Below are positions 33,316 to 39,399 of a stretch of 64,000 nt of DNA, one piece after another; within the stretch, counting starts at the first letter, position 1, and the number at the start of each line of letters is the position of its first letter. The notes under the pieces are model-generated. The model did no database searches, was not told the DNA's origin, and was given only the letters and a program-made list of their open reading frames with translations. Both the position numbers and the translations under genes were made by a program. This stretch comes from Paenalcaligenes suwonensis (GTDB lineage: Bacteria; Pseudomonadota; Gammaproteobacteria; Burkholderiales; Burkholderiaceae_B). The stretch covers positions 124,001 to 188,000 of the forward strand of contig NZ_JAANPV010000005.1 in the NCBI RefSeq assembly GCF_011290505.1, in the 5' to 3' direction.

Positions 33316-34824
33316 TTAACGTGGCACATAAAAACGGGTTTTCTCACTGATGAACTCTTCACCGGAATCCGCATCTGCAGACTTACGAGCGGTAATCACA
33401 ATGTCGTGCATCCCCTCTTTCAAGCCCACATCTACCGGAACCTGTACGTGCACAGGAATCAGCTCATTTGTGGCCGCTGGAACAACGACCTCTGAGCTGC
33501 CACCGCTCACCGTACTAATAGTGATACCAGAGAACCCTTCCGCACCAAGTTCAATACGCATAGGTTGTTCTGATTTGTTCATCATTTGCAGTCTGTAGAT
33601 GTTCTCTATATGACCGCCTGGCACTTCACGCCCCATTACCCCTCGATCTCGAATCACATCCATGTGCAGATCATTACGGGCCATCAGCGAGTAAACCGCT
33701 GCTACAGTAATAAGGCTCAAAATGGCAATATACACCAAGATACGCGGCCTAAACATATGCCTACGAACTTGGTCTTGGGTCAGCCTTTCTGTAATAGCAC
33801 GACCCGAGGTATAACGGATTAAGCCTTTAGGATAATCCAGTTTTTCCATTACATCATCACAGGCATCGACACAGGCCCCGCAACCAATACACATGTATTG
33901 CAGCCCTTCTCGAATATCGATGCCGGTCGGACAGACCTGCACACAGAGGGTACAGTCTACGCAATCCCCTAAGCCTGCCTCTTTATGGTCTACCTTTTTA
34001 GAACGCTTACCGCGTGGCTCACCACGTACATGGTCATAACTCACCACAAAGGTGTCGTCATCCACCATCACACTTTGGAAGCGTGCGTACGGGCACATGT
34101 ATTTACAGATAGCCTCGCGCAGGAAGCCTGCGTTACCCCAGGTAGCAAAACCGTAGAACAACAACCAGAACCACTGCCATGGGCCTAACGTGAAATCCAT
34201 GATCTGAGAACCCAGCTCACGAATAGGCGCAAAATAGCCTATGAACGTAAAGCCAGTCCACAGCGCAATTACTATCCAGAAAAAATGCTTAGTGGCTTTG
34301 AGACGCAGCTTCTTGGCACTCCAAGGTGCTTCATCAAGACGGATACGCGCCATACGGTCGCCTTCCACCTTGCGCTCAACCCACATAAATATTTCGGTAT
34401 ATACCGTTTGCGGACAGGCGTAACCACAGAATAGTCGCCCCGCCATCGCCGTAAAAAGAAACAGCGAGAATGCCGACAAAATTAATATGACGGTCAGGTA
34501 AATAATATCCTGAGGCCACATCACAATGCCGAACATATAGAACTTTCGTGTACCCAGATCAAACAGTACAGCTTGACGGTCATTCCACTGCAACCATGGC
34601 AAACCGTAATAAATAATCTGTGTGAAGAATACAAGGGCGATTCGCCAGTTGGCGAATACCCCTTTTACTGATCGCGCATAGATCTTCTGATTAATATCGA
34701 CGACCTTAACAGCATGAGCGGACGCCTTAGCTGTTACCGGATTGGAGGAAATAGGTGGTTGCCATTCCGGTACCTGCTCTGTATTTCCTTCGTCTGGACG
34801 ACGATGGGGAGCGTCACTACTCAT
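33316..34824 (-). CDS. ccoG: Cytochrome oxidase accessory protein CcoG
   Basis: CcoG (FixG, RdxA) is an iron-sulphur membrane protein that reduces Cu(II) to Cu(I) for insertion into cbb3 oxidase. The 502-residue protein has five hydrophobic segments, a ferredoxin-like domain with CVDCTLCVQVCPTGIDIREG and CIGCGACVDACDDVMEKL (two 4Fe-4S sites), the GYACPQTVYTEIFMWVE and CKYMCPYARFQSVM cysteine pairs, and a C-terminal Ig-like periplasmic domain. GAGG lies six bases before the ATG. It sits 38 bases after ccoP in the oxidase operon. Confidence 0.95.
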   Translation of the reverse strand: MSSDAPHRRPDEGNTEQVPEWQPPISSNPVTAKASAHAVKVVDINQKIYARSVKGVFANWRIALVFFTQIIYYGLPWLQWNDRQAVLFDLGTRKFYMFGIVMWPQDIIYLTVILILSAFSLFLFTAMAGRLFCGYACPQTVYTEIFMWVERKVEGDRMARIRLDEAPWSAKKLRLKATKHFFWIVIALWTGFTFIGYFAPIRELGSQIMDFTLGPWQWFWLLFYGFATWGNAGFLREAICKYMCPYARFQSVMVDDDTFVVSYDHVRGEPRGKRSKKVDHKEAGLGDCVDCTLCVQVCPTGIDIREGLQYMCIGCGACVDACDDVMEKLDYPKGLIRYTSGRAITERLTQDQVRRHMFRPRILVYIAILSLITVAAVYSLMARNDLHMDVIRDRGVMGREVPGGHIENIYRLQMMNKSEQPMRIELGAEGFSGITISTVSGGSSEVVVPAATNELIPVHVQVPVDVGLKEGMHDIVITARKSADADSGEEFISEKTRFYVPR

Positions 34825-34862: not shown

Positions 34863-35771
34863 TTACTTAGAAGTGTTGTTGCTCAGACCCCATACCCAAC
34901 CAGCCAGCAAACGAATTTGCTCTTCGGTCAGACGGTTTTTCTGGGCTGGCATTTGGTTATCACGACCGTTCAAAATACCTTCAACAATCACGGCCTCTGA
35001 ACTGCCATACAGCCAGTTACCGCTAGTCAGGTCAGGAGCACCCAACAATTGATTGCCTTTAGCATCCGCACCGTGACATGCAAAACATGTTTGTTCAAAC
35101 AGTTTTTTGCCAGACGGTACACGTGATTGGTCATGTGCCAAGCTATTCAAGGAGCGTACATACTGAGCGATGTCGGAAGCCTCACCAGGAGTCAACACAC
35201 CTTTGTGTGCTGTCATGATGCCGCGTCTACCTTCAGTAATGGTATGCAGAATATCCTCAGGCTTACCGCCCCACATCCATGTACTGTCTGTCAGGTTAGG
35301 AAAGCTTGGGCTACCTTGAGCATCAGAACCGTGACACTGCGCACAATTGTTCAGGAACAAACGCTGACCAATAGCACGTGCTTCAGCATCGTCAGCGATT
35401 TGCTCAAGTGGCATCTCACGGAAACGCTCGTAAGTAGGTGCCAAACGGGCGTTAATTTGCTCTTGTTGCGCTTGCACTTCTTTAGCTGCTGAGTAGCTCA
35501 GCATACCTTGGTAACTACCCAGACCTGGATACATGATCAGGTAGCCCAATGCGAAGATACACAGCAACACGTACATCACGGTCCACCAACGTGGCACGTT
35601 TGTATTGAGCTCAGTGATGTTGCCATCCCATACGTGGGAGGATTCTTGCTCTTCCATCGACGGTGATAGCCATGCACGCTGTGTCCATAACAGCCACAGA
35701 CAGAAGGCTATACCCAACAAAGCTATAGCGGAGATATAAATACTCCAGCCTTGATTAAAAAAATCACCCAT
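34863..35771 (-). CDS. ccoP: cbb3-type cytochrome oxidase subunit III (CcoP)
   Basis: CcoP is the dihaem cytochrome c subunit that feeds electrons into the cbb3 oxidase. The 302-residue product has two N-terminal membrane helices (about residues 8-28 and 60-80), then two c-type haem sites, CAQCH and CFACH, each with a later methionine ligand. The frame runs further upstream to 35852, but the conserved start is MGDFFNQGW at 35771, which overlaps the end of ccoQ by eight bases. Confidence 0.96.
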   Translation of the reverse strand: MGDFFNQGWSIYISAIALLGIAFCLWLLWTQRAWLSPSMEEQESSHVWDGNITELNTNVPRWWTVMYVLLCIFALGYLIMYPGLGSYQGMLSYSAAKEVQAQQEQINARLAPTYERFREMPLEQIADDAEARAIGQRLFLNNCAQCHGSDAQGSPSFPNLTDSTWMWGGKPEDILHTITEGRRGIMTAHKGVLTPGEASDIAQYVRSLNSLAHDQSRVPSGKKLFEQTCFACHGADAKGNQLLGAPDLTSGNWLYGSSEAVIVEGILNGRDNQMPAQKNRLTEEQIRLLAGWVWGLSNNTSK

Positions 35772-35931
35772 TCGAACCTCCCTGCTCGTCAGCTTCATCC
35801 GGTAATGCGAACGGAAGCATAGACCCATCATGGTTGGCCTTTTTACGGCCATCCGACCACGCCCAGATCACAATACCAATGAACGTCAAAATGCCAAGTA
35901 TTGTCATCAGACCATTCAAGAATGCAACCAT
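35764..35931 (-). CDS. ccoQ: cbb3-type cytochrome oxidase subunit IV (CcoQ)
   Basis: CcoQ stabilises the cbb3 complex. This 55-residue gene was found by translating the gap between ccoO and ccoP. It reads MVAFLNGLMTILGILTFIGI followed by VIWAWSDGRKKANHD, one transmembrane helix with the WAWS/K-rich cytoplasmic boundary typical of the family. It ends in an acidic tail. It starts 2 bases after the ccoO stop and overlaps the ccoP start by eight bases, so the three are translationally coupled. Confidence 0.9.
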   Translation of the reverse strand: MVAFLNGLMTILGILTFIGIVIWAWSDGRKKANHDGSMLPFALPDEADEQGGSNG

Positions 35932-35933
35932 GA

Positions 35934-36593
35934 TTAGCGTCTCCCTTCGGCTACAGCTTGTTCAGCTGCTGCACGACCTTCAACCCCCATACCTTGCAGA
36001 TAAGCGATCAGCGCATCTTCTTCGGTTTTACCAACCAATTGCTGAGGTGCTTTTTCAATCTGCTCGTCGGTATATGGCACACCAATAATGCGCAGAGCAT
36101 TCATACGTGCACGCACGTCGTCATTTTCTACACTGTTATGTTGCAGCCAAGGGTAAGCCGGCATGTTAGAAGCAGGTTCAGTATCACGTGGATTACGCAG
36201 GTGAATACGGTGCCAGTTATCAGTGTACACACCACCTACACGAGCCAAGTCAGGACCAGTACGTTTGGAACCCCACAAGAAGGGGTGATCGTACACAGTC
36301 TCACCGGCCAGTGAGTAAGGACCGTAACGCTGCACTTCAGATTGCAGCATACGGACTTGTTGGGAGTGACAGCCTACGCAACCCTCACGAATGTAGATAT
36401 CTCTACCTACCAAACGCAGAGGCTCGTAAGGCTTCACGCCTTCTGTGGGCTCAGTCATAGAGTGCTGGAAAAACAGCGGCACGATCTGTACCAAACCCGC
36501 AAAGGAAATCACCAGAATACTGAGCACAATCAGCAAACCAACGTTGCGCTCAATCGTGGCGTGTGTAAAACCTTTTTTCTCAGATGAGGACAT
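35934..36593 (-). CDS. ccoO: cbb3-type cytochrome oxidase subunit II (CcoO)
   Basis: CcoO is the monohaem cytochrome c subunit that carries electrons from CcoP to the catalytic subunit. The 219-residue product has one N-terminal helix ([22 protein letters not shown]) and the haem site [10 protein letters not shown], with [31 protein letters not shown] family sequence after it. The chosen start is [11 protein letters not shown]; an upstream in-frame start at 36650 would overlap ccoN. It lies 10 bases after ccoN. Confidence 0.96.
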
Positions 36594-36603
36594 TGATTGC
36601 TCC

Positions 36604-38088
36604 TTATTCCGTAACAACAGCCGGACCAACGTTAGTCGGACTGATCGCATCAGGGTTAGTCAGCGGAACAACAGGGTTCACACGAGGTTTGCCCCATGCT
36701 GTCAAGAAGACGTTCACGCCCATCATGACAATACCGCAAACAAACATAAAGCCACCCAATGCACGAATTGCATAGAACGGATAAGTTGCTTTCACCCCTT
36801 CGACGAAGCTGTATGTCAACAGACCATCAGGAGCGGTTGCACGCCACATCAAACCTTGCATCACACCGGAAATCCACATCGCGGCGATATACAGCACCAC
36901 ACCCAATGTAGCCACCCAGAAGTGAACTTCTACCAGTTTTGGCAGAGCCATCTGTTTTTGGCCATACAAGCGAGGAATCATGTAGTACAGGGAACCAAAG
37001 GTCACCATCGCTACCCAACCCAACGCACCCGAGTGCACGTGACCGATAGTCCAGTCAGTGTAGTGGGACAGGGAGTTCACTGTGCGGATAGCCATCATGG
37101 AACCTTCAAAGGTAGACATACCGTAGAAGGACAATGAGGTTACCAAGAACTTCAAGATAGGATCTGTACGCAGTTTGTGCCAAGCACCCGACAAGGTCAT
37201 GATACCGTTGATCATACCGCCCCATGATGGAGCCAACAGGATCAGCGAGAAGGTCATACCCAAGGATTGGGTCCAGTCAGGCAAGGATGTGTACAGCAAG
37301 TGGTGAGGACCAGCCCACATGTACGTAAAGGCCAATGCCCAGAAGTGCACAATGGACAAACGGTAGGAGTACACCGGACGGTTAGCTTGCTTAGGTACGA
37401 AGTAGTACATCATCCCCAAGAAGCTCGTGGTCAGGAAGAAACCTACGGCGTTATGGCCGTACCACCACTGCACCATCGCATCTTGCACACCGGCGTAAAC
37501 CGAGTAGGACTTCCACATGGAAACCGGAATTTCCAAGTTATTGAAGATGTGCAATACAGCAATAGTGGTAATGAAAGCACCGTAGAACCAGTTCGCCACA
37601 TAAATGTGACGCACACGGCGTTTAACGATAGTGCCAAAGAACACCACAGCATACGATACCCAGACAATCGTAATCAGGATATCCAGAGGCCATTCCATTT
37701 CAGCGTATTCTTTGCTGCTGGTGAAACCCATAGGCAAAGTAATCAGCGCCCCCAACATCACTAGCTGCCAACCCCAGAAGGTGAAAGAAGCCAGTTTTGT
37801 ACAGTACAGACGTACCTGACAGGTACGTTGAACCACGTAGTACGATGTAGCGAACAGTGCGTTACCGCCGAAGGCGAAAATCACCAAGTTGGTATGTACT
37901 GGACGCAGACGGCCATAGCTAAACCATGGCGTTTCGAAGTTAAGTTCAGGCCAAATCAGTTGCAAGGCAACCAGTAAGCCGACACTCATGCCGATAATTC
38001 CCCAAACCACCGTCATGACAGAAAACTGCCGCACGACACCGTAGTTGAAGACTTCGGCCTGTTTCCCGACTATCTCGGAAGTGCCCAT
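36604..38088 (-). CDS. ccoN: cbb3-type cytochrome oxidase subunit I (CcoN)
   Basis: CcoN is the catalytic haem-copper subunit that reduces oxygen to water at low oxygen levels while pumping protons. The 494-residue protein has 12 predicted helices and the ligand histidines in [39 protein letters not shown] and [12 protein letters not shown]. Length is typical (about 480). It starts the ccoNOQP-G-H unit. An Fnr-like palindrome lies 75-88 bases upstream, fitting microaerobic induction. Confidence 0.97.
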
Positions 38089-38244: not shown

Positions 38245-38421
38245 CTATTTCTTGGTGCGCTCCACATCCCTGTGCGTACTGTCATCATCTTTTAGTATTG
38301 ATTCGCCAGCGGATTGGGAGTTTTCAAATTGTCCAGCAAAGATAGCCCACCATAGAGCCACCCCAATCATGATCACAAACAGCAACGAGATCGGAATCAG
38401 GAGAAACAGTGACTCAAGCAT
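38245..38421 (-). CDS. ccoS: cbb3 oxidase maturation protein CcoS
   Basis: CcoS is a small membrane protein needed for cofactor insertion into cbb3 oxidase. This 58-residue gene was read from the gap between ccoI and ccoN. It begins MLESLFLLIPISLLFVIMIG, continues VALWWAIFAGQFENS, and ends with a charged KDDD tail, matching the family pattern of one helix, WW-A-x-x-GQF, then the acidic segment. It starts 18 bases after the ccoI-like gene and precedes ccoN by 156 bases. Confidence 0.9.
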   Translation of the reverse strand: MLESLFLLIPISLLFVIMIGVALWWAIFAGQFENSQSAGESILKDDDSTHRDVERTKK

Positions 38422-38439: not shown

Positions 38440-39399
38440 TTATGCAGTGACCTCACTACCAGACAAGTGATTACCAGAAATACGCTGACGATAAATTCGC
38501 CAGGAGTTCAGGGCCACCAGTAGTGAAGACAACAACATAGAAACAGCAGCCACCCAAGGAGAGACCAACCCTACAGCAGCAAGGGGGGTCATCAACAGGT
38601 GCCAGACAATAGAACCGTATAAATTTTGTTTTGAAATGTGTTCTGTGCGTTGGATGAGCGCAGAAATATCTGCGTCAGATTGTGCAGGTTGCACCATCAA
38701 TCCCGCCTGTGCGGCGGCAACGGCAGTGGGAACGGACATGGACATGGCACAGGGACAGCTCATGACGAATAACGCCACCATGACTGCCACAGCATGATCT
38801 GGTTGATAAAAGAACCACACCACACCTAAAACCAAGGCCAAAATCACTTGAATAAGGACAAACCAGAAAGCTAATGTATTGGCTCGCACCGAAATACCAG
38901 CTCGAAACTGCTCTACGCGATCAAAAGACTGACCACGACTAATAGATTGTCTAGCACAGAACTCTAAATAACGGGCTGTCAGCAAGAACGCCACAAACAT
39001 GCTGACCGAGTCGAAATAGACTTCGCCCTGCCTTTGCCACGTGTTGACTACGCTGGGGATGAAAGCCACGATAATCCCTAACGCAACGGGCACATCCATC
39101 CCAACTTTGAATTTTTTAAGACTGTTCCATGCCCCTACCCAGATAGGCTGAGCACAGTAAAGCATTACGGGAACAGTCAGCACTAAACCCGCCCAGTTCA
39201 TCAAAATGATGGCCTTATCCATCAAGGCCAAACTGTCAGGCTCCATAGTCTCTGAGCGCAAATACCCTGGAAAAGCAAACATCATGACCTGCATCATAAC
39301 CAACCACGCCAAGCCCAACCGCGCGAGCATATGTTTGCGCTGGCGGCGCTGCTCGTCGGAAAGACCCGCAGGGATAGTAAATATAGAGTATGCGCGCAT
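38440..39399 (-). CDS. ccoI: CcoI-type copper P-type ATPase reduced to its membrane part
   Basis: Full CcoI (FixI) is a copper-transporting P-type ATPase of about 750-800 residues needed for cbb3 assembly. This 319-residue product keeps about eight hydrophobic helices in the right order: MA/MB/M1 (about residues 25-120), M2 (128-147, DSVSMFVAFLL), M3/M4 (175-233) with the metal-site CPC at 215-217, and M5/M6 (258-297, ending SMLLSSLLVALNSWR). The N-terminal metal-binding domain is absent. The actuator domain expected between M2 and M3 is replaced by about 25 residues, and the phosphorylation and nucleotide domains between M4 and M5 by about 20; there is no DKTGT and no TGE. It therefore cannot hydrolyse ATP in the normal way. 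The frame is open and is followed by ccoS. No good ribosome site is seen before the ATG. Confidence 0.85.
   Translation of the reverse strand: MRAYSIFTIPAGLSDEQRRQRKHMLARLGLAWLVMMQVMMFAFPGYLRSETMEPDSLALMDKAIILMNWAGLVLTVPVMLYCAQPIWVGAWNSLKKFKVGMDVPVALGIIVAFIPSVVNTWQRQGEVYFDSVSMFVAFLLTARYLEFCARQSISRGQSFDRVEQFRAGISVRANTLAFWFVLIQVILALVLGVVWFFYQPDHAVAVMVALFVMSCPCAMSMSVPTAVAAAQAGLMVQPAQSDADISALIQRTEHISKQNLYGSIVWHLLMTPLAAVGLVSPWVAAVSMLLSSLLVALNSWRIYRQRISGNHLSGSEVTA

Follow-up and report, generated by a model that had tools for sequence, protein, structure and literature searches.

The window, a 64,000-nucleotide stretch of Paenalcaligenes suwonensis DNA, carries a cbb3 oxidase (cco) locus in which an open frame of 319 residues lies beside ccoS and ccoN in the position of ccoI (Table 1). 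As the initial annotation had proposed, its product retains only the membrane helices and the CPC metal motif of this P-type ATPase. The three soluble domains reported as missing are indeed absent on alignment with full-length CcoI: the N-terminal metal-binding domain (~157 residues; no HMA domain among the matches listed), the actuator domain with its TGE motif (a 106-residue block), and the phosphorylation/nucleotide domain with DKTGT (a 243-residue block; no HAD domain among the matches listed). Because all three energy-coupling parts are gone, this stripped CcoI cannot pump by means of ATP, and ATP-driven Cu(I) transport is excluded for the architecture deduced from the gene. Against TIGR01511, the copper P-type ATPase profile, the protein scores 80.7 bits, below the curated cut-off of 397; it exceeds the cut-off of 28.1 for PF00122 (E1-E2_ATPase) with 36.7 bits, through profile positions 103–177 of 181 only. 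Its predicted fold is that of the P1B ATPase membrane domain and CPC lies in M4 as expected, but the second membrane site departs from the canonical one, with Met and Ser kept and Asn exchanged for His. Its position in the cco locus and its place in the CcoI tree make it an orthologue of CcoI by descent; by the defining features of the class, it is no P1B ATPase.

Table 1. Features of the cco locus and of the stripped CcoI in the window. Alignment A1 holds 48 of the 54 stripped sequences (window plus 53 relatives' loci), six Achromobacter rows having been dropped.
Feature	Coordinates	Strand	Remarks
Stripped CcoI, 319 aa, membrane helices MA, MB, M1–M6 only	38440..39399	(-)	helix names via alignment with full-length CcoI
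Actuator domain junction (domain absent; 106 aa in L097)	38920..38940	(-)	limits approximate
Q184 in M3, new invariant polar residue	38848..38850	(-)	28/28 stripped, 0/16 full-length
CPC motif, residues 215–217, M4, first membrane Cu(I) site	38749..38757	(-)	invariant in 48/48 rows of alignment A1
Phosphorylation/nucleotide domain junction (domain absent; 243 aa in L097)	38650..38670	(-)	limits approximate
W266-H267, M5, replaces Y-N of full-length CcoI (Asn of second membrane site)	38599..38604	(-)	
MLLSS, residues 288–292, M6: Met and Ser of second membrane site	38524..38538	(-)	
ccoS	38245..38421	(-)	PF03597 and TIGR00847 above cut-off
ccoN, catalytic subunit of cbb3 oxidase	36604..38088	(-)	named from sequence
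ccoO	35934..36650	(-)	named from sequence; same order in relatives
ccoQ-like small ORF	35764..35931	(-)	by position
ccoP	34863..35852	(-)	named from sequence; same order in relatives
ccoG, cupric reductase homologue	33316..34824	(-)	named from sequence; same order in relatives

The initial annotation would have been undermined had close relatives held a full-length copy and this strain alone a shortened one, which is not the case. The short form is present in nine of the ten other Paenalcaligenes genomes, the tenth (G004, 72% complete) giving no CcoI-like match at E ≤ 1e-10. Homologues of similar length, for which the annotation had proposed a search in Alcaligenaceae, occupy 53 of the 55 loci obtained in a scan of named genomes, in Paenalcaligenes, Alcaligenes, Achromobacter, Pusillimonas, Castellaniella, Advenella, Pelistega, Paracandidimonas and further Alcaligenaceae. 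The remaining two loci come from elsewhere; L078 has a full-length gene, and L077 is a fragment of that same type. With relatives carrying the stripped form, a loss confined to this strain is rejected. The family to which the window belongs was surveyed in 268 genomes; a CcoI-like gene (E ≤ 1e-10) is present in 204 of them, which by match score divide into 184 of stripped and 20 of full-length type. The class was set by E-value (for G275, by contig-end position), and the stripped count takes in G124 and G275, where the gene is cut at a contig end, and G140, where it is interrupted. No intermediate form occurs among the loci read. Frame breakage is another outcome that would have spoken against the annotation: frame lengths in the family survey were taken from among the matches listed, and among these the stripped rows are open, the one TAA counted, in G032, closing a gene of 310 residues; the genes found broken or cut are those of G140, G124 and G275. 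In G140, which we take to be Bordetella pertussis, the stripped CcoI is split by ~1,079 bases containing a transposase-like ORF of 316 aa (L193:4458-6610), and the adjoining ccoN is in pieces. The ccoN of B. pertussis is called a pseudogene in the accessible text of PMC13038864.

Beyond the family, no stripped form appears among the matches listed for the order and phylum, both of which were searched as samples at cut-offs that a more diverged stripped form would escape. In the order-wide sample of 399 genomes, 245 matched the stripped CcoI at E ≤ 1e-30; the nine that the window's own family contributes cover the profile from end to end, in frames of 325–370 aa, and the other rows among the matches listed reach its first part only, most in frames of 620–1,180 aa and a few in frames of 404–476. 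The phylum sample of 398 genomes gave 15 matches at E ≤ 1e-35, the sole one of stripped type being the window's own and the other 14 lying in frames of 764–1,065 aa.

The stripped gene is linked to the oxidase locus. The order ccoI-ccoS-ccoN-ccoO-ccoP-ccoG is found in all 53 of the relatives' stripped loci, as far as each locus extends. Achromobacter ruhlandii LMG 1866 has two different cco loci (L070, L071) with a stripped CcoI in each, and in L190 and L191 (G164, G218) a full-length CcoI lies downstream of ccoNOP, an order unlike that of the other loci read. Of the 202 genomes in which CcoN matches strongly (E ≤ 1e-170), 198 hold a CcoI-like gene, stripped or full, versus 6 of the 66 others. 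The Fisher value of 1e-47 overstates independence, since the genomes share ancestry and the genes adjoin one another. In two of the four exceptions, G153 and G181, ccoN sits at the end of a contig; G214 and G216 gave no CcoI-like match despite strong CcoN, through an assembly gap or a true loss, an observation that counts against the interpretation favoured below. Conversely, CcoI-like genes without strong CcoN lie at contig ends in G079, G124 and G275, and that of G243, of full-length type, comes from a 66% complete assembly; G140, in which both genes are broken, and G106 complete this set of six.

Phylogenies place the stripped proteins together. The CcoI tree, computed from 298 membrane columns of 44 rows (28 chosen stripped and 16 full-length sequences, including nine loci from the family's 20 genomes of full-length type, with the fragment L077 dropped), puts all 28 stripped rows on one side of a branch with support of 100/100. 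The same division appears in the CcoN tree (30 rows, 17 + 13) with support of 99/94. Nearest to the stripped clade are G035, G222 and G229, where a full-length CcoI occupies a locus arranged in the same way, although ccoS was not detected in G222. As the sampled stripped rows form one clade in both trees, the simplest reading is a single loss, inherited together with the oxidase. The stem of the stripped clade measures 0.76 in the CcoI tree versus 0.057 in that of CcoN; terminal branches have medians of 0.29 and 0.093, respectively, so the excess on the CcoI stem is larger than a general difference in rate would give, in a comparison of two trees whose row sets differ.

The stripped CcoI is under purifying selection. 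Between the window and its nearest relative, L026, ccoI has dN of 0.026 and dS of 0.50, a ratio of 0.052, comparable values for the neighbouring genes being 0.042 (ccoG), 0.045 (ccoP), 0.008 (ccoO) and 0.011 (ccoN). Across the usable pairs, the median ratio is 0.136 for ccoI (502 pairs), near that of ccoP (0.143), with 0.088 for ccoG, 0.098 for ccoO and 0.072 for ccoN. These are Nei-Gojobori estimates from pairs with dS of 0.1–1 only, excluding L077, L078, L006–L025 and loci whose match covers <85% of the query. The highest single-pair ratios (0.94 for ccoI, 2.79 for ccoP, 2.73 for ccoO) are probably alignment faults. A ratio near one, which would have spoken for decay, is thus not what the nearest pair gives, and the initial view that a membrane-only protein is being selected for gains support.

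The residues kept and changed in the membrane are informative about the copper site. In Rhodobacter, CcoI has the CPC motif and a second site composed of Asn in M5 with Met and Ser in the last helix, according to the accessible text of PMC8475189. CPC and MxxSS are retained in all 44 rows, stripped and full-length alike. The M5 pair, by contrast, is YN in 16 of 16 full-length sequences and WH in 28 of 28 stripped ones (as in every one of the 48 A1 rows), with FH at this position in the incomplete L194. W262 of full-length CcoI is replaced by G in 28 of 28 stripped rows. Residues that we equate with the copper path of solved copper ATPases are largely present in the 28 stripped rows: M101 in 28, D or E130 in 28, E146 in 25 and D174 in 19, with N in the other nine. 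The fixed YN-to-WH and W262-to-G exchanges, together with the new Q184, suggest a retuned site; retention of CPC, Met and Ser alongside the change of Asn to His looks like retuning of the copper site and not its loss. The conserved ligands make binding of Cu(I) by the stripped protein likely. The change of Asn to His nevertheless breaks the canonical second membrane site, and this counts against the interpretation favoured below. Both the altered second site beside unchanged CPC and MxxSS and the extension of the trait to a whole clade go beyond what the initial annotation had described.

A PF00122 search of the window's own assembly (99.87% complete) found no other CcoI and none of full length, and the check that the annotation had called for reveals one CopA-type pump, an ATPase of 831 aa with two MxCxxC motifs. 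The five PF00122 places comprise a CopA-like, a ZntA-like and an MgtA-like gene, presumptive names assigned from motifs, together with the stripped CcoI and a remnant fused to a porin. This last (L092:1212-3071, minus strand, outside the window) is a 620-aa frame in which Cation_ATPase_N and part of E1-E2_ATPase, the N-terminal part of a P-type ATPase, are directly followed by a Gram-negative porin, whose apparent own signal peptide lies inside the frame. The genome further has one PCuAC match and three SCO1/SenC matches. A split protein with the lost domains encoded elsewhere was considered and set aside after examination of the PF00122 places and of eight of the 13 PF00702 matches. Three of the 13 lie in the CopA-, ZntA- and MgtA-like genes, five are short-frame loci that were read, and five are short frames of 188–255 aa. 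DKTGT is absent from the five loci read (L082, L084–L087), and L087 has GDGAND in a 293-aa frame. Across the family, a CopA-type match (E ≤ 1e-120) is present in 236 of 268 genomes, comprising 171 of the 184 of stripped type and 65 of the 84 others. Five of the 13 stripped-type genomes without such a match were read: G023, G032, G245 and G246 have a full-length Cu-type ATPase, and G006 (92% complete) has a ZntA-like full-length ATPase only.

Studies of full-length CcoI indicate what a motorless form might still do. In Rhodobacter capsulatus, as given in the accessible text of PMC8475189, mutation of CPC in CcoI abolishes cbb3 activity. A strain lacking CcoI recovers with neither extra copper nor extra CopA, although copper does restore chaperone mutants, a contrast that the authors call surprising. 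The failure of rescue suggests a role for CcoI beyond filling the periplasm with copper. The same source reports that Cu(I) transport by R. capsulatus CcoI depends on ATP hydrolysis, so that the membrane part alone may do nothing. Two cases bear on this point. Genome G032, taken here as Taylorella equigenitalis NC_018108.1, encodes the stripped CcoI and a Cu-type ATPase of 714 aa as its two PF00122 proteins. In another strain, T. equigenitalis is reported from its genome sequence to have a single terminal oxidase, cbb3 (PMC3250509, accessible text). With cbb3 as the sole reported oxidase and the stripped form present, cbb3 is presumably built in this species with stripped CcoI and without the full-length protein, a conclusion that rests on a genome-based report on a different strain. 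In Bordetella bronchiseptica, a strain with the cco oxidase only could not be made even though its ccoN transcript was highest, and the authors suggest a lack of translation, assembly or cofactors (PMC11257404, accessible text). If the stripped form is present in that strain, its failure counts against the favoured interpretation.

The interpretation favoured here, which we hold with roughly balanced confidence, is that the stripped CcoI would be an assembly factor of cbb3 oxidase that sits in the membrane, binds Cu(I) without the use of ATP and hands it to CcoN, with export carried out by another ATPase. The ATPase machinery of CcoI would have been lost once, in the ancestor of the Alcaligenaceae carriers, and the membrane copper site kept and retuned. 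Cu(I) might be held between CPC in M4, His267 in M5 and Met288/Ser291-292 in M6 and passed to CcoN, either directly or through SenC/PCuAC chaperones, a direction of flow that we infer. Energy-driven export of copper to the periplasm would be left to the CopA-type ATPase of the genome. On this proposal CcoI would both export copper and pass it locally to the oxidase, and these Alcaligenaceae may have kept the second function only.

Other readings, among them the channel, the scaffold and the partner of another ATPase that the initial annotation had suggested, are less probable. A passive Cu(I) channel or gradient-driven carrier, using the old pump pathway without ATP and in either direction, is conceivable if rather unlikely: the copper ligands and most assumed entry and exit residues are kept, the predicted membrane fold resembles that of copper ATPases, and Q184 and H267, both new and polar, might provide proton coupling, but an open copper leak would presumably be harmful, and a non-hydrolysable ATP analogue elicited no current from reconstituted CcoI (PMC8475189, accessible text). 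Unlikely, too, is a structural scaffold for cbb3 assembly with CcoN, CcoS and CcoG in which copper binding is no longer relevant. Invariance of CPC and MxxSS in all 44 rows would be unexpected were copper binding dispensable, although a scaffold agrees with residence of the gene within the cco locus in 53 of 53 relatives, with the loss of the soluble copper-loading domain and with strict conservation of the non-ligand residues N68, G45 and P115 (each in 28 of 28 stripped rows).

The frequency of CopA-type matches in stripped-type genomes, with full-length Cu-type ATPases in four of the five read that have no such match, would agree with an obligate heteromer in which the stripped protein borrows or modulates the motor of a CopA-type ATPase. 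Such an arrangement is improbable: CopA-type matches are also found in 65 of the 84 genomes that have no stripped form, G006 shows a ZntA-like ATPase only, and in the pumps known to us the P-type domains are covalently coupled. That the protein is a relic in slow decay is very improbable and already contradicted by the selection data, with dN/dS of 0.052 to the nearest relative and 0.136 at the median, and by a stripped-type match in 184 of 268 genomes. The one gene that might illustrate decay, in G140, is split by its transposase-bearing insert beside a fragmented ccoN, that is, where the oxidase gene itself is broken.

If the assembly-factor interpretation is correct, the non-pumping role of CcoI in oxidase assembly would be the indispensable one. 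A natural CcoI that has no motor and is under selection makes it directly testable whether pumping or local handover is essential, and the protein would represent a conserved P-type ATPase fold without its catalytic domain. The fuller statement, in which a P-type ATPase became, by one stable conversion, a device that hands over Cu(I) without ATP, has gained a His ligand at its copper site and serves cbb3 assembly across much of the Alcaligenaceae, is put forward tentatively, as a possibility we lean slightly against. The stripped protein bears on the copper supply of oxidases in Achromobacter, Alcaligenes, Taylorella and, by extension, presumably Bordetella.

A CcoI without soluble domains was not found described in searches of open-access literature, which covered titles and openings of abstracts, with most subscription papers outside their scope; nor do the accessible parts of PMC13038864, PMC10903467 and PMC4028982 describe one. 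Compared with CcoI/FixI of R. capsulatus, a CopA2-type P1B ATPase, the stripped form has in common the kind of locus, the membrane part, CPC in M4 and the Met and Ser of the last helix; it differs in the loss of the N-terminal metal-binding, actuator and phosphorylation/nucleotide domains, in His for Asn and in the predicted inability to hydrolyse ATP. Over residues ~15–155 (MA to M2), it is 36–53% identical to full-length relatives in the order's other families. Identity to the membrane domains of the copper ATPases 4bbj, which we take to be LpCopA, and 7si7 (ATP7B) in the PDB is 23–26% over the aligned part, both of those proteins having soluble domains. The stripped CcoI would act in the same assembly line as CcoG, CcoS, SenC and PCuAC, none of which, to our knowledge, derives from a P-type ATPase. 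At its N-terminus (residues 1–10), S5, I6, F7 and P10 are each conserved in 90% or more of the 48 A1 rows; S5 and F7 are found in 27 of 28 stripped rows versus none of the 16 full-length rows, and the conserved segment is possibly a new contact motif.
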